From Halobacterium noricense (GTDB taxonomy: Archaea > Halobacteriota > Halobacteria > Halobacteriales > Halobacteriaceae): a DNA stretch of 64,000 bases. The position numbers were made by a program, and so were the translations under genes. The notes beneath the pieces were generated by a model. It was not told where the DNA came from and made no database searches. It saw nothing but the letters and a program-made list of their open reading frames with translations. Below, piece by piece: positions 20,275-63,856 of this stretch (its first letter is position 1; every line of letters starts with the position of its first letter). The stretch spans positions 2,108,001-2,172,000 of the forward strand of contig NZ_CP089468.1 of NCBI RefSeq assembly GCF_021233435.1. Direction: 5' to 3'.

Positions 20275-23200
20275 ATGCCTAAGATTGCACTCTACACCGC
20301 GACCGAGAACGAACTCGGCTCCATCCAGGCGGCCGCCGAGCGCGTCGAGGCTGACCTCCTCGCGCGCTCGGAGAGCGACCTCGACGACGACACCGACGTC
20401 GAGGCGTTCGCCGACGCCGCCGCGGACGCCGACGCCGCCGTGTTCTGGCTACACGGTGCCGAGGACAGCATGCCCGGCTACGACCGCGCGACCCGACGGC
20501 TCGCCGACGAGGGCGTCCCGCTCGTCGTCAACTCCACGGGCGACGCCTACGCCCTCGAGGATACCACCGTCGCCGCGGAAGACCGCGACGCCGTCTACGA
20601 GTACCTCGACCGGGGTGGCACGGCGAACGTCGCCAACTGCCTGCGCTACCTCGTCGACCATTACTCGCCCGCCGACCGCGCGTACGACGACCCCGTCGCG
20701 CTCCCCACGGAGGGCGTCTACCACCCCGACTACCCGGGCGTCGCGTACGACGAACTCCGCGCGACCTTCGACCCCGACGCGCCGACCGTCGCGGTCTGGT
20801 TCTACGAGTCCCACTGGACCCACGAGAACACCCGCTACGTCGACAGCGTCGTCCGGGCGTTAGAGGCGCAGGGTGCGAACGCGCTCCCCATCTTCTGTAA
20901 TCCAGCGACGGACAGCGACGAGCAGGAGGACGCCGAGTGGGTGACCGACGAGTGGCTCCTGGAAGACGGTGAGCCCGTCGTCGACGCCGTGCTCTCGTCG
21001 TTCATGTTCTCGCTGTCGATGGACGAGCGCGGCCGCTCGGCCGACGACGAGGGCGACTCCGCGGAGGACGTCTTCCTCGACCGCCTCGGCGTCCCGGTGC
21101 TCCAGACCGTCACGACGATGCGCTCGCGGTCCCGGTACGAGTCCGCGGACACGGGCGTGATGGGGTTCGAACTCGCGCTCTCGGTCGCGCTCCCGGAGTT
21201 CGACGGCAACGTCATCACGCACCCGATTTCGGGGAAGGAGCGCACCGACGACGACGCGGGCATCGGCACCGCGCCGAAACAGCACTTCCCCATCGAGGAC
21301 CGCGTCGACCACGCCGCCAGCCTCGCGGTGAACTGGGCGCGCCTCCGCCACCTCGACAACGACGAGAAGCACGTCGCCGTCGTGCTCCACAACTACCCGC
21401 CCAGCGACGACGGCATCGGCACCGCGTTCGGCCTCGACACGCCCGAGAGCACGGTCAATCTGCTCGACGAACTGGACGCACGCGGGTACGAATTAGGTAG
21501 CGAGGCGCTTCGCGCCTCGAAACAGTCGAGCGGGGAGCACAGCGACCCGCGAGACGGAGCGAGCCCACCGGAGGGACAGGCGCTCATCGAGCAGTTGACG
21601 AGCCAGCTCACGCTGGACGACCGCTGGGTCGCGCCAGAGGACGTCGCCGAACGGAGCGTCGACGTGGTGTCGACTGACGAGTACGCGGACTGGTGGGCGG
21701 ACGCGGACCCGGAATTCCGCGAGAACGTGGTCGAAGAGTGGGGCGAGCCGCCCGAGCGCCCGTTCGCGATTCCGGGCGTCGAGTACGGGAACGTGCTCGT
21801 GACCGTCCAGCCGCCCCGCGGGTTCAGCATGGACCCACAGAAGGTCTACCACGACAGCGACCTCCAGCCGCCACACGACTACTACGCGTTCTACGCGTGG
21901 CTCCGCGAGGACTTCGACGCGGACGCGGTCGTCCACCTCGGCACGCACGGCAGTCTGGAGTGGCTGCCCGGGAAGACCGTCGGCCTCGATTCGGCGAGTG
22001 CGCCGGACGCGCTGCTCGGCGACCTGCCGAACGTCTACCCGTACATCGTCAACAACCCCGGCGAGGGCACGCAGGCCAAGCGCCGGTCGTACGCCGCGGT
22101 CGTGGACTACCTCACGCCCGTGATGCGCAACGCGGGCACGTACGACGAACTCGCGGAACTCGAAGAACTGGCGTCGCGCTACCGAGAAGCCGGCACTGGC
22201 TCGGGCGCCGACAGCGAGGCCCACCTCGCCGAGCGCATCCGCGAGCACGTCGACGACCTCGACCTCGCGGTCGAACTCGGGATCGCGGGCGAGATTTCGG
22301 AGAAAGCCGACGTGAGAGGTCCCGAGGAAGCCGGCACGTCGCTCGCAGAAGGCGACGTATCGGGTGACGACGTAGACATCGAGGAACTGGTCGAGCGCGT
22401 CCACGAGTACGTGACGGACGTGAAGACGACCCAGATTCGACTGGGGCTCCACACGATGGGTGAACCCCCGGAAGGCGACCGCCTCGTGGAGTACCTCGTG
22501 GCGCTCACGCGCCTCGAGAACCCGGGCGCGCCGTCGCTGCGCGAGAGCGTCGCGGGCGTGCTCGGCGTGGACTACGAGACGATGCTGGACTCCCCGGGCG
22601 CGTACAGTGAGGAATTGGGGATGACGTACGCCGAGGCCGCCGACGAGGTGTACGAGACGAGCGTCGACCTCGTGGAGACACTCGCCGCCGAGAACTTCGA
22701 CGTGCCCGCGTCGAACGTCGAAGCAGGCCCCGAAGACGAGGTGAACATGAATCTGCTCGTGGTCGACAGGGAGGCGTCGGAGACGCCTCTTGCAGCCGGC
22801 GAAGCCGGCGACGTCGACACGCTCGGCGACGCCCGCGCGAAGTCCGGCGCACACGACGACCTCCGTGACGTTCTCGCATTCATCTGCGAGGAGGCCGCGC
22901 CGCGGGTGTTTGGCGCGGAGACCGAGATTCCCCAGACTGCGGACGCGCTGAACGGCGAGTACGTCGAACCGGGCGGGAGCGGCGCGCCGACGCGCGGCGG
23001 CGTCGACCTGCTGCCGACGGGCCGGAACTTCTACACGCTGGACCCGCGGAAGGTGCCCGCGAAGACCGCCTGGGACGTGGGGAAGGAAGTCGCAGACGGC
23101 ATCGCCCAGCGCCACAGAGAAGAGAGTGCGGCGCGAAGCGCCGTGGACCAGTCGAGCGGGGAGCACAGCGACCCGCGAGACGAGGGCGAGTACCCCGATG

Positions 23201-42125: not shown

Positions 42126-42396
42126 TCGCGAACAGTCGCGCCGGCACGACAAGAACGTTCGGCACGAAACAGCGAGCATCCGTGACCCGAGCGGCGCGAG
42201 GCGCGAGGTACGAGCGCCTCGGCCTGCGCGAACGGGGAGCGTAGCGACCCGTGAGCGGGTCGAAGACCCCGGAAGGGTCGCGGTTCACCGAGCGCGAATC
42301 GCTCGGGCCGACGAACCCCCGATAGGGGGTGAGGACGGCTTTTAGCGTAGCTTTTGCCAGCGAGAGAGCGAAGCGAACGAGCGCAGCAAAAGGTAC
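42126..42396. repeat. Hairpin-rich intergenic repeat cluster
   Basis: Between gcvH and the small gene lies a run of hairpins (about 42225-42330): GACCCG-tgag-CGGGTC, GACCC-cggaa-GGGTC, CGAGCG-cgaat-CGCTCG and CCCCC-gata-GGGGG. It includes CGAACGGGGAGCGTAGCGACC, related to the core of the 77-bp array at 60907. It may end gcvTH transcription. No gene is seen in it. Confidence 0.6.
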
Positions 42397-54358: not shown

Positions 54359-55042
54359 CTACGAGTGGTCTTCCGTGTGGCCGAAGACGTCGGTTACCTC
54401 GGGCGTCGCGCCCTTGCTGGAGTAGACCGTGAGGAGGTCGCCGGCCTCGATGCGGGTGTTCCCGCGGGGCGTTATCGGTTCGCCCTCGCCGTCGCGCTCG
54501 ATGGCGACGACGAGCAACTCGCCTTCGAGCAGCCCCGCCTCGTCGGCCTCCCGCAGCGTCTTCCCCGTGATCGGGGCGTCCCGTTCGACGGTAATCTCGA
54601 ACACCTCGGCCTCCTCGCCGATGCGCATGAAGTCGACGATGGACGGCCGCTTGACCGCCCGATAGAGGTACTCCGCGATGAGGTGCTGGGGGTTCTGCAT
54701 CGTGTTCACGCCGATCTGGCGGAACAGGTTCATGTGCTCGGGGTCGTGGACGACGGAGACGACGTCCGGGACCTCCAGTTCCTGCGCAAGCAGACACACC
54801 ATCACGTTCGTAGCGTCCTGGTCGGTCGTCGAAATCAGGGCGTCCGCGCGGTCCGCGCCGGCGTCCTCCAGGGTCTCCTTCGACGTCGCGTCGTCGTTGA
54901 TGACCAGACAGTCGTACTCGCCCGAAATCCGCTCCGCGCGCTCCTCGTCGCGCTCGATGACCACGACCTCGTTGCCACCGTTCGTGGCAATCTCGGTGAG
55001 GGGGTCGCCGATGTCACCCGCGCCGACGATGACGATGTACAT
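54359..55042 (-). CDS. trkA: TrkA potassium uptake regulatory subunit (RCK domains)
   Basis: A 227-residue protein with RCK-N (Rossmann motif IVIVGAGDIGDPL at the start, acidic VVVIERDEE) followed by RCK-C (about residues 140-215). It binds nucleotide and gates TrkH. ATG 55042 is preferred; an in-frame GTG at 55051 adds three residues. Confidence 0.94.
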   Translation of the reverse strand: MYIVIVGAGDIGDPLTEIATNGGNEVVVIERDEERAERISGEYDCLVINDDATSKETLEDAGADRADALISTTDQDATNVMVCLLAQELEVPDVVSVVHDPEHMNLFRQIGVNTMQNPQHLIAEYLYRAVKRPSIVDFMRIGEEAEVFEITVERDAPITGKTLREADEAGLLEGELLVVAIERDGEGEPITPRGNTRIEAGDLLTVYSSKGATPEVTDVFGHTEDHS

Positions 55043-55365
55043 TAGCGACACGCTTCAGGGCCGACAACTGAAAGGCTGTCGCTCTATCTGACAATCCGGC
55101 ATACACGCCTCGGCAGCGGTTACGCACTCTCTGGACGGTGCGAGGGCGTGAAAATCCGTCGAGTGCCGTGGTCCGACTTCGGGCGACGCGTCGCGGAGAC
55201 AGTGGGGCTCGCGGGTCGCTTCGCTCGCGGCTCACGATGTTCGCCGCTCGGCATTCCGCGCTCTCCTCCGTCGAGCGCGCGCTCCCCGCTCGTGGTAACG
55301 TGGCTTCCCTTCGGTCAGCCACGCGCTCCGCAACCACTAAACGCGGCTCGCGCCTTCTTCCGGTA
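55043..55365. other. Intergenic region upstream of rfcL with diverged 77-bp-type repeat
   Basis: About 320 bp without a supported gene. It contains segments related to the tandem array at 60907 in reverse orientation: GCTCGCGGGTCGCTTCGCTC near 55207-55226 and a longer match at 55281-55338. Promoters of trkA (left) and rfcL (right) must lie here. Confidence 0.55.
55281..55338 (-). repeat. Solo diverged copy of the 77-bp repeat
   Basis: The plus strand here aligns over about 58 bp to the reverse complement of the 77-bp unit at 60907. Its hairpin CGTGGCT-N11-AGCCACG (55299-55323) replaces CGTGGTC-N11-GACCACG of the array. Both altered base pairs are still complementary and the loop differs at one position. 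Confidence 0.7.
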
Positions 55366-56808
55366 ATGACCGACTGGACGGAGAAGTACCGCCCGTCGTC
55401 GCTGTCGGAGGTCCGCGGGAACAACAAGGCCCGCGACGCGCTCCGGGAGTGGGCGGACACGTGGGAGGACCACCGGGAGGCCGTCATCCTCTACGGGAGT
55501 CCGGGCGTCGGCAAGACGTCGGCAGCGCACGCGCTGGCGGCCGACGAGGGCTGGGACGTCGTGGAGTTGAACGCGTCCGACCAGCGAACCGCCTCGGTCG
55601 TCGAGCGCGTCGCCGGCGAGGCCGCGAAGTCCGGGACGCTGGCGGGCGGGACGGGGGGCCGCAAGCTCGTCGTGATGGACGAGGCGGACAACCTCCACGG
55701 GAACGTCGACCGCGGCGGCTCTGCGGCCATCACGGACCTCGTGAAGGAGTCCACGCAGCCCATCGTGCTCATCGCCAACGAGTACTACGACATGAGCAAC
55801 ACGCTGCGGAACGCCTGTCAGGACATCGAGTTCCGGGACGTCTCCAAGCGCTCCATCGTCCCCGTGCTCCGGGACATCTGCCGGCGCGAGGGCATCGACT
55901 ACGACGAGGAGGCCCTAGAAGCCATCGCCGAACAGAACTCCGGGGACCTGCGGTCGGCGGTCAACGACCTGCAGGCGCTCGCGGAGACCGGGGAGACGCT
56001 CACCACCGACGACGTGGTGATGGGCGAGCGCGACCGCACCGAGGGCATCTTCGACTTCCTCGACGACCTCATCAAACAGCTCGGCGCGCAGGACGCGCTG
56101 GAAGCCGCCTACGACGTCGACGAGACGCCCGACGACCTCATCAACTGGGTCGAGGACAACGTGCCCAAGGACTACTACGGGGACGAGCTCGCGGACGCCT
56201 ACGAGTTCCTCTCGAACGCGGACGTCTGGCTGGGGCGGGTGCGTGCGACGCAGAACTACTCCTACTGGCGGTACGCGACGGACAACATCGCGGCGGGCGT
56301 CGCGGCGTCGCGCCAGCACGACCACGGCGGGTGGACGCGCTACGGGCCGCCGTCGTACTGGCGGAAACTCGGGTCTTCGCGGGCGACCCGGAACAAGCGC
56401 GACTACGTCGCGCGCAAGGTCGCGGAGGTCAGCGGCTGCAGCATGTCGACGGCGCGCCGCAAAACCGTGCCGTTCCTCGCGACGATGACCCACCACTGCA
56501 AGAACCGGGAGTTGACGGTGGCGATGACGGCGGCGTACGACCTCGACGCCGAGCACGTCTCGTTCGTCACGGGCTCCGGGGAGACGACGAACAAGGTCCA
56601 GTCCATCGTCGAGGACGCCGAACAACTACGGTCGGAGCGCGCCGTCGAGCACTCCGGCGGGGCTTTCGAGGGCGAGGCGAGCTTCGACGAAGCGGACGAG
56701 TCCAGCGAGGAAGCAGCGGCAGACGAGGAAGCCGAGTACGAAGATGAGGACGAGCAGGACGAGGCGGAGAGCGACGACGACCAGGCGGGCCTGGACGACT
56801 TCTTCTGA
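55366..56808 (+). CDS. rfcL: Replication factor C large subunit
   Basis: A 480-residue clamp-loader AAA+ ATPase that loads PCNA on DNA. Walker A is YGSPGVGKTSAAHAL (about residues 43-57) and Walker B VVMDEADNLHG (about 100-110). A long acidic C-terminus ends in a PCNA-interacting motif, QAGLDDFF. ATG 55366 matches the conserved start MTDWTEKYRP. Confidence 0.96.
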   Translation: MTDWTEKYRPSSLSEVRGNNKARDALREWADTWEDHREAVILYGSPGVGKTSAAHALAADEGWDVVELNASDQRTASVVERVAGEAAKSGTLAGGTGGRKLVVMDEADNLHGNVDRGGSAAITDLVKESTQPIVLIANEYYDMSNTLRNACQDIEFRDVSKRSIVPVLRDICRREGIDYDEEALEAIAEQNSGDLRSAVNDLQALAETGETLTTDDVVMGERDRTEGIFDFLDDLIKQLGAQDALEAAYDVDETPDDLINWVEDNVPKDYYGDELADAYEFLSNADVWLGRVRATQNYSYWRYATDNIAAGVAASRQHDHGGWTRYGPPSYWRKLGSSRATRNKRDYVARKVAEVSGCSMSTARRKTVPFLATMTHHCKNRELTVAMTAAYDLDAEHVSFVTGSGETTNKVQSIVEDAEQLRSERAVEHSGGAFEGEASFDEADESSEEAAADEEAEYEDEDEQDEAESDDDQAGLDDFF

Positions 56809-57753
56809 CTACTCCGTGGGGGAGCGTCCGCCCGCGGAGCCGCCGACGCCCGGAATCGCGACGCGCTTGCGGACCCACTCCATGGTGGTCGTCGCGGACA
56901 GCACGAGCAGGACGTAGACGACCGCCGCGAGCAGGAAGAGGTCGAGGAACCGGTAGTTCTCGTAGGCGGCGGTCTCGGCGGCGTGGTAGAGTTCGCTCAC
57001 CGTGATGAACGACGCCAGCGAGGAGTACTTCGTGAGGTAGACGAGTTCGTTGGTCCACGACGGAATGGCGAACCGCAACGCCTGCGGGAGGACGACGTGG
57101 CGAATCCCCCGGAACTGGGAGAGGCCGATGGCGCGCGCGGCCGTCAACTGGCCGGGGTCGACGCCCTCGATGGACCCCCGGATGTACTCGGCCTGGTAGG
57201 CGGCGCTGTTGATGGTGAAGCCGACGACGGCGACCCACACGGCTTGCGCGGGGACGATGCCGCTGCCGACCAGCGGGACGGCGGCAATCCACCGCGAGAG
57301 CGGGAGCGCGTAGTACAGCACGAACAGCTGCGCGAGCAGCGGCGTCCCGCGGATGAGTTCGATGAACGCCAGCGCGACCCAGTGGGTGACGCGGCCGTAG
57401 ACGCGGGCGGCCGCCAGCGGCACCGCCAGCACCAGCCCGAACACGATGCCGAGCGTCGTGAGCACGACGGTGAGCCACGCCCCCGCGGCGAGGTCCGGGA
57501 GGTAGACCATCGCGAACGAGACGGAGTCGAGCGCGCTCGCGACCCAGCCGACCGGCACGCCGAGGAGGCCCAGTCGGGCCGCAGTATCGCCGAGCGCGGT
57601 CGCGGCGTCGGCGACGGGCTGCGGGTCGAAGAACGGCTGGCCGGCGTCGACGAACACGCCGCCGAACCAGTCGTTGAGCAGGCGCGCACCGAACCACAAC
57701 CAGAAGGCCGCGAGAATCCCGTCCCGGACGAGTCGCTGCGTGCTCCGGCTCAT
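56809..57753 (-). CDS. Polar amino-acid ABC transporter permease
   Basis: A 314-residue HisM/GlnP-type permease. The permease core begins after an N-terminal extension of about 80 residues ([24 protein letters not shown]). [18 protein letters not shown] and the EAA-type loop [22 protein letters not shown] contact the ATPase. Last gene of a four-gene operon (binding protein, permease, ATPase, permease). Confidence 0.92.
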
Positions 57754-58496
57754 TGGCCGCCGTGGAGTTGGGTGAGGCGGCTGAGGAACGCCGCGGTGCG
57801 GTCCTTCTCGGGGTTCTCGAAGAGCTGTTCGGGCGGCCCCTGTTCGACGAGCTTGCCGCCGTCGAGGAACAACACGTCGGTCGCGGCCTGCTTGGCGAAG
57901 CCCATCTCGTGGGTGACCACGAGCATCGTCATCCCCTCCTCGGCGAGGTCGCGCATCACGGACAACACCTCGCCGATGAGTTCGGGGTCGAGCGCGGACG
58001 TCGGCTCGTCGAACAGCATCAGCTTGGGGTCCATCGCGAGCGCGCGGGCGATGCCGACGCGCTGCTGCTGCCCGCCCGACAGCTCGGCGGGGTAGGAGTT
58101 GGCTTGCTCGCGGAGCCCGACCTGTTCGAGCTGCCACGCGGCCTTCTCGACGGCCCGCCGGTCGCCGTAGTCGAGGACGTGCTTGAGGCCGAGCGTAACG
58201 TTTTCGAGGGCGGTGAGGTGCGCGAACAGGTTGAAGTCCTGGAACACCATCCCGACCTGTCGGCGCAGGTCGTCGGCGTCCATGTCGTAAATGGAGTCGC
58301 CGTCGAGGCGGATATCGCCCTCGTCGATGTCCGTGAGGCGGTTGACACAGCGGAGCATCGTCGACTTCCCGGAGCCGGAGGGGCCGACGAGCACCTTGAC
58401 GTCTTGGCGCTCCATATCGAAGGAGATGCCTTCGAGGACGCGTTCCTCACCGTAGCTCTGGTAGACGTCGTCGACGTCGAGTAGTGGGTCAGACAT
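57750..58496 (-). CDS. glnQ: Polar amino-acid ABC transporter ATP-binding protein
   Basis: A 248-residue ATPase with Walker [16 protein letters not shown] signature [15 protein letters not shown] and Walker [15 protein letters not shown]. It overlaps both permease genes (4 bp and 1 bp). The class typically serves glutamine or other polar amino acids; the actual substrate is not known. Confidence 0.95.
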
Positions 58497-59182
58497 TAGT
58501 GGTTACCTCCGGGAATCGCGACGCTGCTGTGGAGCACCTCGATGCCGCGGTTGACGGTGAACGTCAACACGAAGTAGATGAGCGACGCCGCCAGGAACAC
58601 TTCGAGGGCGGCGGTCGTCTGGATGGAGAAGAGGTCGTAACTGCGCTTCAACAGCTCCGCGACGCCGATGGCGTACGCGATGCTGGTGTCCTTGAGGACG
58701 ATGGTGAACTCGTTTTGGAAGCCGGGCACCGAGCGCCGCAGCGCCTGCGGCAACACGACGTGCCGGATGGCGTCGAGCTTCGAGAGCCCGACGGCGCGCG
58801 CGGCTTCCATCTGCCCGCCCTCGACGCTCTCGATGGCGCCGCGGAAGATTTGGCTCTGGTAGGCGGCCGAGCGCACGCCGAGCGCGAGCGTCGCCGCGAG
58901 GAATGCCGGCGAGATGCCGCCCGCGAAGTACGTCAGCGAGATGATGACGAGGATTGGCGTGCCACGGATGGCGACACCGAGCGGACGGACGACGCCCTTC
59001 GAGTACGTGCCGCCGTAGGCTTCGACGACGCCCGCGGGGAGGCCGAGCAGGAAGCCCAGCACCATGCTGAAGAACGTCAACTGGACGGCCAGTATCGTCC
59101 CGTCGACGAAGAACTGCCGCTGCCGCCAGACGAACTCCCAGTCGCCGAGTTCGGCTTGCAGTACGAGTTGCGTCGGGTCCAT
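58496..59182 (-). CDS. Polar amino-acid ABC transporter permease
   Basis: A 228-residue permease with about five membrane helices and the loop [23 protein letters not shown], homologous to that of the permease at 56809. The two permeases probably form the heterodimeric channel for the same substrate-binding protein. Confidence 0.92.
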
Positions 59183-59187
59183 CGGCG

Positions 59188-59976
59188 TTATTCGCTAGCG
59201 AACCACTTTGCGGTGAGGTCTGCGTACGTGCCGTTGTCCCGGACGGTCTGCAGGCCCTCGTTGAGTGCGCTCTGGAGGCCGCTGTCGCCCTGGGGGACGC
59301 CGAAGCCGTACTGCTCGCCGGTTTCGATGGTGAACGAGACGACGACGTCGCGGTTCGAGACGAACGTCTCCGCGACGGGCGTGTCCACGATGACGGCGTC
59401 CGTGTTGCCGTTCGTGAGGTCCTCGACGGCTAGCACGTAGTTCTCGTAGGTGTTGGCCTGCGAGCTACTGATGGTGCCGTTCTCGACGAGAGAGTCCATC
59501 TGGGATTTGCCGGTGGTCCCGGACTGCGCGCCGACGGGGTGGTCGGCGAGGTCGGACTTGCTGGACGGGCGGAAGCTCCCGCCTTCGCGGACGAGCACCG
59601 CCTGGTTGGCGTCGTAGTAGGGGTCCGTGAAGTCGATGTTCTGGTCGCGCTCGTCGTTGATGGTCATCGCCGCCGCGATGACGTCGATGTTGCCGTTCTG
59701 GAGTGCAGTGGTGAGCTGGGTGAACTCCAGGTCTTCCCACTCGCCGAGTTCGTACTCCGTCTGTTCGACGACCGCCGACAGGAGGTCGACGTCGAAGCCC
59801 ACGAGGTCGCCGGACTCGTTGACGAACTCGAATGGCGGGAAGCCCGACGCCGTGCCGGGGGTGATGGTGTTCGAGTCGCCGTTGCCGCCGGTGAGCTGCG
59901 AACAGCCCGCCAGCGACAGTGCGACGCCGGTACCGCCGACGCTCTTCAGGAACGTCCGCCGATTGAATTCAGACAT
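59188..59976 (-). CDS. Substrate-binding lipoprotein of the amino-acid ABC transporter
   Basis: A 262-residue solute-binding protein of family 3. The N-terminus has a Tat motif (NRRTFLKSVGG) and a lipobox (SLAGC, Cys about residue 25), so it is exported folded and lipid-anchored, as is usual in haloarchaea. FPPFEFVNESGDLVGFDVDL and DAVIVDTPVAE match the family. ATG 59976 is supported by a TATTTAAG box about 25-30 bp upstream. Confidence 0.94.
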   Translation of the reverse strand: MSEFNRRTFLKSVGGTGVALSLAGCSQLTGGNGDSNTITPGTASGFPPFEFVNESGDLVGFDVDLLSAVVEQTEYELGEWEDLEFTQLTTALQNGNIDVIAAAMTINDERDQNIDFTDPYYDANQAVLVREGGSFRPSSKSDLADHPVGAQSGTTGKSQMDSLVENGTISSSQANTYENYVLAVEDLTNGNTDAVIVDTPVAETFVSNRDVVVSFTIETGEQYGFGVPQGDSGLQSALNEGLQTVRDNGTYADLTAKWFASE

Positions 59977-60031
59977 ACCAAACCGATGCACGGGGAGGGA
60001 CTTAAATACAACCGAACCTGCACGACGTCGG

Positions 60032-60859
60032 CTACGGGGAGGCGGTAGCGCTCGCGCCGGTGGAGCGCACGGCGACGACGAACAGCGCGGCGACGAGCAC
60101 GGTGAGCGCGTAGTAGATGAGGTGGACGGTCGGGGAGAACTGCACGACGCCGGTCCCGATGAGAATCTGGACGGTGACGGCGGCAATCGTGGCGACCATC
60201 GCCTGCGCGGCGCGGCGGTTGTCGCGGCGGCGCGCCCACACGAGCGCGGCGAGCGCGGCGGTGAACACGAGCAGTTCGAGCGCGTGGTGGATCAGTTGGA
60301 CGCGCGTTCCGTACACCGCGAAGACGGTGTTCCGGGAGAACACCAGCGCGACCGGGAGCACCGCGAGGCCGGCCAGTGAGGCGGTTCGGACGCGCCCGAG
60401 GCCGTCGCCGACGAGTTCGCGCATCCGGAGCGTCGTGTAGCCGAGCGTCCCGAAGATGGCGAGCGCGGCGAGGTGGTGGACGGCCTGCGTGATGGGCATG
60501 TACCCCCACGGAACGAGGCCGCTGAACGTCACGGTCGTGCCGCCGAGAATCACCTGAATCGGCAGGAGGACCACGGCGAGCACGCCGCCGATTTTGACGT
60601 CGCGCTGGTCGAAGTCGCGCCACGCGACGGCACCGGTGCCGAGGATGAAGAAGCCGACGACCATCGCGAACCCGCGGTGGAACTGCTCGACGAAGTCGTG
60701 AATCTGGAGGCCCAGCGGGAGGAGTTGGCCGTTGCAGTCGGGCCACTGGAGCCCGCAGGTCGCGCCCGACCCGGAGACGGCGGTGTACTCGCCGACGAGG
60801 ATGAGCGCGAACGTCAGCACAGTCGTCACGGCCGCGAGCTGGTAGGAGCGGCGGTCCAT
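60032..60859 (-). CDS. ctaA: Heme A synthase (CtaA/COX15)
   Basis: A 275-residue membrane protein with eight predicted helices. SGSGATCGLQWPDCNGQLLP (about residues 30-49) has the conserved cysteine pair. The heme-ligand histidines lie in EQFHRGFAM, AVHHLAAL, LIHHALEL and the penultimate-helix HLIYYALT. It oxidises heme O to heme A for a cytochrome aa3-type oxidase. Its promoter lies just before the 77-bp tandem array. Confidence 0.92.
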   Translation of the reverse strand: MDRRSYQLAAVTTVLTFALILVGEYTAVSGSGATCGLQWPDCNGQLLPLGLQIHDFVEQFHRGFAMVVGFFILGTGAVAWRDFDQRDVKIGGVLAVVLLPIQVILGGTTVTFSGLVPWGYMPITQAVHHLAALAIFGTLGYTTLRMRELVGDGLGRVRTASLAGLAVLPVALVFSRNTVFAVYGTRVQLIHHALELLVFTAALAALVWARRRDNRRAAQAMVATIAAVTVQILIGTGVVQFSPTVHLIYYALTVLVAALFVVAVRSTGASATASP

Positions 60860-60906
60860 GGCTCGGATTTTTGGACGAGTGTACGTAGGCGTGTCGTATT
60901 GGGCGT

Positions 60907-61486
60907 GAGCGTGGTCGACCGCAGGGAGACCACGTTATAGCGAGCGGGGAGCGTAGCGACCCGCGAGCAGCGTGGTTCGGAGCGAGCGTGGTCGACCGCA
61001 GGGAGACCACGTTATAGCGAGCGGGGAGCGTAGCGACCCGCGAGCAGCGTGGTTCGGAGCGAGCGTGGTCGACCGCAGGGAGACCACGTTATAGCGAGCG
61101 GGGAGCGTAGCGACCCGCGAGCAGCGTGGTTCGGAGCGAGCGTGGTCGACCGCAGGGAGACCACGTTATAGCGAGCGGGGAGCGTAGCGACCCGCGAGCA
61201 GCGTGGTTCGGAGCGAGCGTGGTCGACCGCAGGGAGACCACGTTATAGCGAGCGGGGAGCGTAGCGACCCGCGAGCAGCGTGGTTCGGAGCGAGCGTGGT
61301 CGACCGCAGGGAGACCACGTTATAGCGAGCGGGGAGCGTAGCGACCCGCGAGCAGCGTGGTTCGGAGCGAGCGTGGTCGACCGCAGGGAGACCACGTTAT
61401 AGCGAGCGGGGAGCGTAGCGACCCGCGAGCAGCGTGGTTCGGAGCGAGCGTGGTCGACCGCAGGGAGACCACGTTATAGCGAGCGG
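60907..61486. repeat. Perfect 77-bp tandem repeat array (7 copies plus 41 bp)
   Basis: Units start at 60907, 60984, 61061, 61138, 61215, 61292, 61369 and 61446 (the last partial, 41 bp), with no differences seen by eye. Each unit has a hairpin CGTGGTC-gaccgcaggga-GACCACG and a GAGCGGGGAGCGTAGCGACC core. There are no spacers, so it is not a CRISPR. It fills most of the divergent region between ctaA and maeB and contains no gene. Confidence 0.97.
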
Positions 61487-61609
61487 CGTGGCGCGAAACG
61501 TTATTTCGAGAGGACTGCGTCCCTGGAAGCCGACTCGTTTCGACGCGTGACGTAACAACATTCGACGCGTTGGGATAGGTTTTTGGCCGTCGGCGCGGCA
61601 GACAACGAC
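61487..61609. promoter_or_regulatory. maeB upstream region
   Basis: About 120 bp between the repeat array and the maeB ATG, including AACGTTATTTC (61498-61508) and GATAGGTTTTTGG (61574-61586). The second, about 25-35 bp before ATG 61610, is the most likely promoter. Confidence 0.4.

Positions 61610-63856
<2,247 letters not shown>

Follow-up and report, generated by a model that had tools for sequence, protein, structure and literature searches.

A dispersed hairpin family of Halobacteria that may act as DNA at promoters

Introduction

Short palindromes repeated outside genes are known from the REP and BIME elements of bacteria, in which the stems of the GTAG and CGTC super-families vary by compensated changes while palindromy is kept (PMC3733652; PMC2817692). 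Among haloarchaeal elements, the PATEs of Haloquadratum have been tied to IS605-type transposons (PMC3119063). At the level of structure, DNA hairpins are known to be capped by GNA loops that contain sheared G.A pairs, and the telomere DNA structure of Streptomyces is thought to protect the exposed strand (PMC7205883).

The locus considered here lies in a window of 64,000 nt from the 3.32-Mb genome of Halobacterium noricense, where a solitary hairpin lies between rfcL and a trkA-like gene that diverges from it, and a tandem array of related hairpins stands at ctaA. A preliminary description had compared the two and proposed that the hairpin itself is selected. Work on the organism's own genome drew on sampled stretches and pattern searches, and genes were called with a simple hexamer model in a script of our own. 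The reading we prefer, at a probability of roughly 0.5, is that these hairpins belong to a dispersed family of Halobacteria that acts as DNA, one branch of it at promoters, and whose copies are exchanged as palindromic units.

The solo hairpin and the array

Features of the window are collected in Table 1, in which H1 denotes the form with a 7-bp stem and H2 the form with a 5-bp stem. The solo H1 parses as CGTGGCT-TC-CC-TTC-GG-TC-AGCCACG, and on the opposite strand presents a tandem GA/GA and a GAA triloop; its 3' end falls 42 bp ahead of the rfcL ATG (55366), with a TATA-like ctaaac at 55337-55342, that is, at -29 to -24. The layout seen from 55280 to 55298 onward, a half-unit followed by H1, is also met in other copies.

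Table 1. Hairpins, genes and promoter region of the window, with coordinates in the window
Feature	Position	Strand	Evidence
H1 hairpin (solo), CGTGGCT-TCCCTTCGGTC-AGCCACG	55299..55323	+	sequence and unbiased motif scan
Degenerate H2 half-unit with 9-nt spacer (cgctccccgctcgtggtaa), 5' of H1	55280..55298	+	inverted repeat, 82% to array
Second family hairpin in the same rfcL gap, GCGGC-TCACGATGTTC-GCCGC	55227..55247	+	motif scan
rfcL core promoter region, H1 to ATG	55324..55365	+	sequence
rfcL, replication factor C large subunit	55366..56808	+	AAA and RFC lid domains; orthologues in 13/13 congeners
77-bp tandem array, 7.5 units	60907..61486	-	period 77, 100% matches
Promoter-proximal array H1	60910..60934	-	3' end 50 bp ahead of ctaA start
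Haem A synthase gene of COX15/CtaA type, 3' of array	60032..60859	-	PF02628, 5e-14
Gene on far side of array	61610..63856	+	Pfam
Isolated H2-type hairpin, ACGGG-GAGCGTAGCGA-CCCGT	42232..42252	+	compensated relative to GCGGG..CCCGC

In the array, eight H1 (CGTGGTC-TCCCTGCGGTC-GACCACG) alternate with seven H2 (GCGGG-TCGCTACGCTC-CCCGC), and the TC strand faces ctaA. The other palindrome within each 77-bp unit (GCGGG-GAGCGTAGCGA-CCCGC) is built like H1, with mismatch, pairs and triloop. When up to three mismatches are allowed, the array hairpin occurs eight times in the window as against none in 100 shuffles. A CRISPR array is rejected, the entire 77-bp unit being identical and free of unique spacers, and so is an intrinsic terminator, since no stem followed by a T-tract occurs in 60840-61620 and the CGTG class precedes gene starts. 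The orthologous ctaA gap of genome G002 (61060-61349 of the merged L131-L140 stretch) measures ~289 bp and holds one H1; judged against it, the array at 60907-61486 looks like a recent expansion. Elsewhere in the window, the palindrome GCGGG-GAGCACAGCGA-CCCGC occurs twice within one predicted 4-kb coding region (21526-21554 and 23152-23180).

Direct reading of the sequence bears out the compared letters of the preliminary description: solo and array stems differ at two loop-adjacent pairs, each changed on both arms with pairing kept, the loops differ by a single base, and the solo copy is opposite in orientation, standing on the plus strand against eight array H1 on the minus strand. Two of its terms need narrowing. 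The "solo copy of the 77-bp repeat" comprises the hairpin and ~20 bp of the neighbouring half-unit rather than the full 77-bp unit, the shared stretch (55280-55324) being 82% complementary to the array over 45 nt; and the "11-nt loop", correct in its length and its single difference, is not free, for 2+2 of its 11 nt pair and covary.

A structured loop core

Read on the opposite strand, the loop has the form GA-xy-GNA-y'x'-GA, which comprises tandem G.A mismatches, two covarying base pairs and a GNA triloop. The loop motif has 64 sites in the organism's own genome, where copies with up to three mismatches vary inside the loop in paired fashion (TCCCTNCGGTC, TCGCTTCGCTC, TCACTTCGTTC, TCCTTACAGTC); the stems vary too, and stems and inner loops occur in many combinations. 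When hairpins were enumerated over 464 kb blind to their letters, 11-nt loops were in excess (122, where an order-5 Markov control gave 74). Of 102 deduplicated interrupted hairpins with 7-bp arms from seven species, 65 have GA/GA as their 2/2 mismatch, and the triloop is GNA in 62/79 interrupted hairpins with arms of at least 6 bp. Choice by an outer CGTG..CACG at the correct spacing gave 25 distinct hairpins with paired arms; every one has TC/TC, and Watson-Crick pairing holds for 49 of their 50 inner pairs. Four more TC/TC sites fall short of full pairing. The organism's own genome also has repeated copies of a distinct branch, CGGGAGAC-GAGCACTGCGA-GTCTCCCG, whose triloop is ACT or ATA (L072 1902, L069 781, L074 5773, L071 7181); these lie partly within long stretches that hold no called genes.

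Folding energies differ between the strands. As RNA, the GA strand is clearly the better folder (-16.2 vs -11.2 kcal/mol for H2; -14.2 vs -11.7 for H1); as DNA it is also slightly more stable than the TC strand, at modest energies of about -6 to -8 kcal/mol.

Covariation and coupled change of the arms

With sites seeded by the loop only, and thus picked without regard to the stem, Watson-Crick pairing proceeds outward as.88,.86,.74,.76,.74,.64 and.48 and then.29,.31 and.19, so that 74-88% of sites are paired over the five flanking positions and pairing reaches background past position 7; the reversed loop, used as a control, gave no sites in the same DNA. In the 35 distinct loop-seeded sites 78% of cells are paired, as against 61% when shuffled, and sliding gives no more than 44%; covariation scores 0.415 compared with 0.175 in shuffles, none of 500 of which attains that value. 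The covariation first suspected from two copies therefore holds when more are collected. Copies with uncompensated stem changes, which had been named as evidence against a selected hairpin, do exist, although the 2-4 of them are a minority beside 25 fully paired CGTG copies.

Orthologues of rfcL allow this to be followed at a single position. In the orthologue set of seven species, set against shuffle and slide controls, the hairpin is 100% paired and 8/9 pairs have changed on both sides. In G000, G002, G008, G010, G003 and G005 the H1 ends 37-43 bp 5' of the start codon, and G004 has a close equivalent of H1 upstream of rfcL; stems at this position include CGTGGCT, CGTGCTC, CGTGGCC, CGTTCCC and GTCGTCC, each fully paired, and the G007 copy is damaged by one base. 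Hairpins have been lost and gained between species: the one at rfcL is kept in 8/13 congeners, with five lacking it, and H1 was found at rfcL in none of 80 loci fetched from other records. The hairpin is therefore not essential at rfcL.

Across 15 pairwise comparisons, which are mutually non-independent, stem pairs of the rfcL orthologues show 27 double-sided and no one-sided differences, and G000 and G002, which differ at only 13% of fourfold sites, nonetheless differ in three of seven stem pairs. Independent stepwise compensation should leave one-sided intermediates, and these sequences point instead to both arms being altered at once, whether through copy replacement or through arm-templated repair. 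The proposal that the hairpin itself is selected must be qualified to this extent: its structure is constrained, but paired change of the arms with no one-sided intermediates fits copy replacement and arm-templated repair as well.

These same data speak for a neutral or selfish origin, in which palindromes would spread by recombination and their arms would be kept complementary by arm-templated repair or replacement of whole copies. Apart from the 27 double-sided and zero one-sided differences, stem pairs change far beyond the expectation for independent change at the fourfold-site rate; recent spread is shown by identical 77-bp units and by one stem/loop type in six own-genome contexts; and presence at rfcL is variable. 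Arm-templated repair alone is insufficient, however, because it would tend to erase the GA/GA (TC/TC) mismatch, which is kept and is invariant in paired copies.

Position relative to genes and promoters

Over 1.65 Mb, only 16 of 135 sites fall in called coding DNA, and most are intergenic. In the CGT-stem class, 40/44 copies of H1 face a gene start, and their gaps comprise 18 divergent, 6 tandem and 0 convergent ones (hand count). When the nearest H1 on each gap side is taken, 16/23 end within 34-52 bp of the start codon, their actual distances being 37-50 bp, where 1.5 would be expected from uniform placement (p<5e-5). The genes behind these hairpins number nine once the six rfcL cases are treated as orthologues, and they are unrelated: rfcL, ctaA, a glutaredoxin, DUF5789, an acyl-CoA dehydrogenase, a RIO-like kinase, hemC, pspA and one with no Pfam match.

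When AT content is profiled over 903 upstream regions, TATA stands out at -30 to -26, accompanied by a signal in the BRE region at -34/-33 and a further peak at -11/-10. Leaderless haloarchaeal promoters have this pattern, base composition being the only ground on which the genes are taken to be leaderless. The profile of the 16 H1 promoters is much like it, and taken with the distance at which H1 ends, this places H1 directly against the BRE. Where H2 precedes H1, their centres are usually 32 bp apart, and across all arrays 35/54 neighbours are spaced by 28-34 bp and 49/54 share the same orientation.

This positional lock bears on the neutral or selfish origin, under which the site just 5' of the BRE would merely be the nearest point that tolerates insertion. 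Tolerance alone predicts neither the single orientation nor the accumulation at 37-50 bp, nor does it predict the constant order and spacing of H2 and H1, and we regard such an origin as somewhat unlikely. The constant distance and orientation to TATA, along with the ~31-bp spacing, would also suit an operator in duplex DNA, its H1/H2 half-sites being bound by a dimeric regulator at intervals of three helical turns beside the BRE. Half-site letters should then be conserved, but those of the stem change with complementarity preserved; TC/TC forms a direct rather than an inverted repeat; and the downstream genes are functionally unrelated, all of which makes an operator of this kind quite improbable.

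Members of the family with other stems lie mostly where genes end or where two genes converge, and a promoter role therefore cannot cover the entire family. Their placement is one of several points in favour of an RNA element, in which antisense transcription from the neighbouring promoter, or read-through, would yield a GA-strand RNA that folds and terminates transcription, stabilises the transcript or recruits a protein. The better fold of the GA strand as RNA agrees with such a role, covariation is the usual sign of RNA, and in Haloferax volcanii a structured hairpin terminated 59% of transcripts (PMC7237163). Set against these points, H1 appears to lie upstream of the start of both flanking genes; the array region has no T-tract terminator, whereas the intergenic terminators of H. 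volcanii are T stretches (PMC7237163); and no Rfam match reached the gathering score within 54900-61800. An RNA element is unlikely on balance. Of the two alternatives that had been offered for the hairpin, RNA structure or a protein-bound cruciform, RNA is thus the less probable, because H1 lies 5' of the probable leaderless start, and folded DNA is favoured.

Distribution

The loop core is present in 145/145 Halobacteria genomes sampled. In a sample of the phylum, 11 Halobacteria gave 233 motif sites as against 35 reversed controls (hand sum), while 69 other Halobacteriota gave 234 as against 239, which is no enrichment. Other genera have different flanking stems again, often still paired, and six motif-rich genomes from such genera yielded no CGTG..CACG stem around this loop; it is only the loop core that is class-wide. 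Copies with the stem CGTGGCC occur on plasmids of Haloarcula and Salinirubellus. A single match on a viral contig has a stem that does not pair, and seems fortuitous. Three haloarchaeal plasmids (NC_002608.1, CP050019.1, NZ_CP147842.1) have in common a long, hairpin-rich non-coding stretch with family hairpins (L282 1500-1830, L283 1500-2140, L284 1430-1740), which is a candidate replication origin or non-coding RNA; the gene downstream of it, on the minus strand, is of OB-fold or TFB-family type or hypothetical. In genome G035 (L265, L268), the hairpin CGGCGCAC-TCCCTGCGGTC-GTGCGCCG, whose 5' arm resembles a tRNA 3' end, lies near a tRNA-Gly gene.

Dispersal of this kind raises the question of REP elements mobilised by a RAYT or an IS200/IS605 Y1 transposase, which the haloarchaeal hairpins recall in being palindromic, extragenic and clustered, with compensated stem variants (PMC3733652; PMC2817692). 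Y1_Tnp is nevertheless absent from G003, G004, G005 and G010, all of which have hairpins or arrays; in the organism's own genome, five of six Y1 matches have no hairpin within ~1.5 kb, and the sixth, a fragment, has one 0.4 kb away. With the transposase lacking from four hairpin-bearing congeners and no own-genome Y1 gene having copies on both sides, the link is rejected and mobilisation of this kind is very hard to credit.

A possible mode of action

With one branch at a nearly constant distance upstream of promoters in Halobacterium, the hairpins resemble a recurrent DNA structure that serves promoters more than random repeat debris. A family member is built of an outer stem of 5-8 bp that is nearly free in sequence, a tandem GA/GA mismatch, 2 bp and a GNA triloop, with H1 and H2 modules recurring about every 31 bp in the way that REPs build BIMEs. 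In the CGTG-stem branch of Halobacterium, found mostly in promoter-bearing gaps, H1 adjoins the BRE/TATA of probably leaderless genes, nearly always in one orientation. The palindrome may be extruded or folded once the DNA 5' of the promoter is negatively supercoiled or single-stranded, and negative supercoiling behind divergent promoters could drive extrusion; the GA strand would then take up a compact hairpin fold, with sheared G.A pairs and the GNA loop closing it. We can only guess at what follows, namely that the folded form might be recognised by a putative protein or serve as a promoter-side boundary, with some effect on transcription. Copies would spread and be exchanged as palindromic units, and for this reason both arms would change together. 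A bolder version, in which a class-wide DNA hairpin of conserved shape and near-free stem letters is stacked against the core promoter at intervals of three helical turns and recognised by shape in folded single-stranded DNA, is conceivable but doubtful.

If the preferred reading is true, a repeat family defined by shape and fixed at the edge of the archaeal core promoter would be a new kind of archaeal cis element, and would offer a natural test of cruciform action at promoters in vivo. It would also be a clean case in which covariation, usually taken as proof of selected RNA structure, may stem in part from coupled change of DNA arms.

Comparison with known systems

No description of the GA/GNA hairpin family was found in the open-access literature; subscription papers fell mostly outside the search, and a prior description is possible. 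The virion RNA polymerase promoters of phage N4 provide an analogy, with a short hairpin that is extruded by supercoiling, bears a GNA-type triloop and stands beside the promoter. We know of no tandem GA/GA in the N4 hairpins, and the polymerase differs. The hairpin terminators of Haloferax are haloarchaeal hairpins near transcript ends; they lie 5' of transcript 3' ends (PMC7237163), however, whereas the CGTG class precedes gene starts and lacks a T stretch. The telomere palindromes of Streptomyces resemble the family as a series of hairpins with GNA caps and sheared G.A pairing (PMC7205883), but they are terminal on linear replicons, while the haloarchaeal hairpins are internal, at promoters, and have in addition a tandem GA/GA that is separated from the loop by two base pairs.

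The PATEs, MITEs and SMRs of Haloquadratum are haloarchaeal, transposase-free and palindrome-bearing, as are the present hairpins, but they are longer insertions with palindromes or inverted repeats at their ends (PMC3119063), whereas the repeat unit of the present family is the hairpin itself. A PATE or IS605-type element was considered and set aside, as the hairpins stand singly or in arrays right at promoters and do not flank the Y1 genes of the organism's own genome. The bacterial REP and BIME elements, like the haloarchaeal hairpins, are extragenic palindromes of 20-40 bp that occur as singles, pairs and clusters (PMC3733652; PMC2817692), and the haloarchaeal hairpins are indeed short, mostly extragenic, clustered palindromes in many copies. 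Inspection by eye nevertheless showed no constant terminal GTAG/CGTC tag beside their stems, and they have no linked RAYT; they are archaeal and class-wide, one branch holds a fixed promoter-proximal position, and the family combines an invariant GA/GA and GNA core with a near-free stem.
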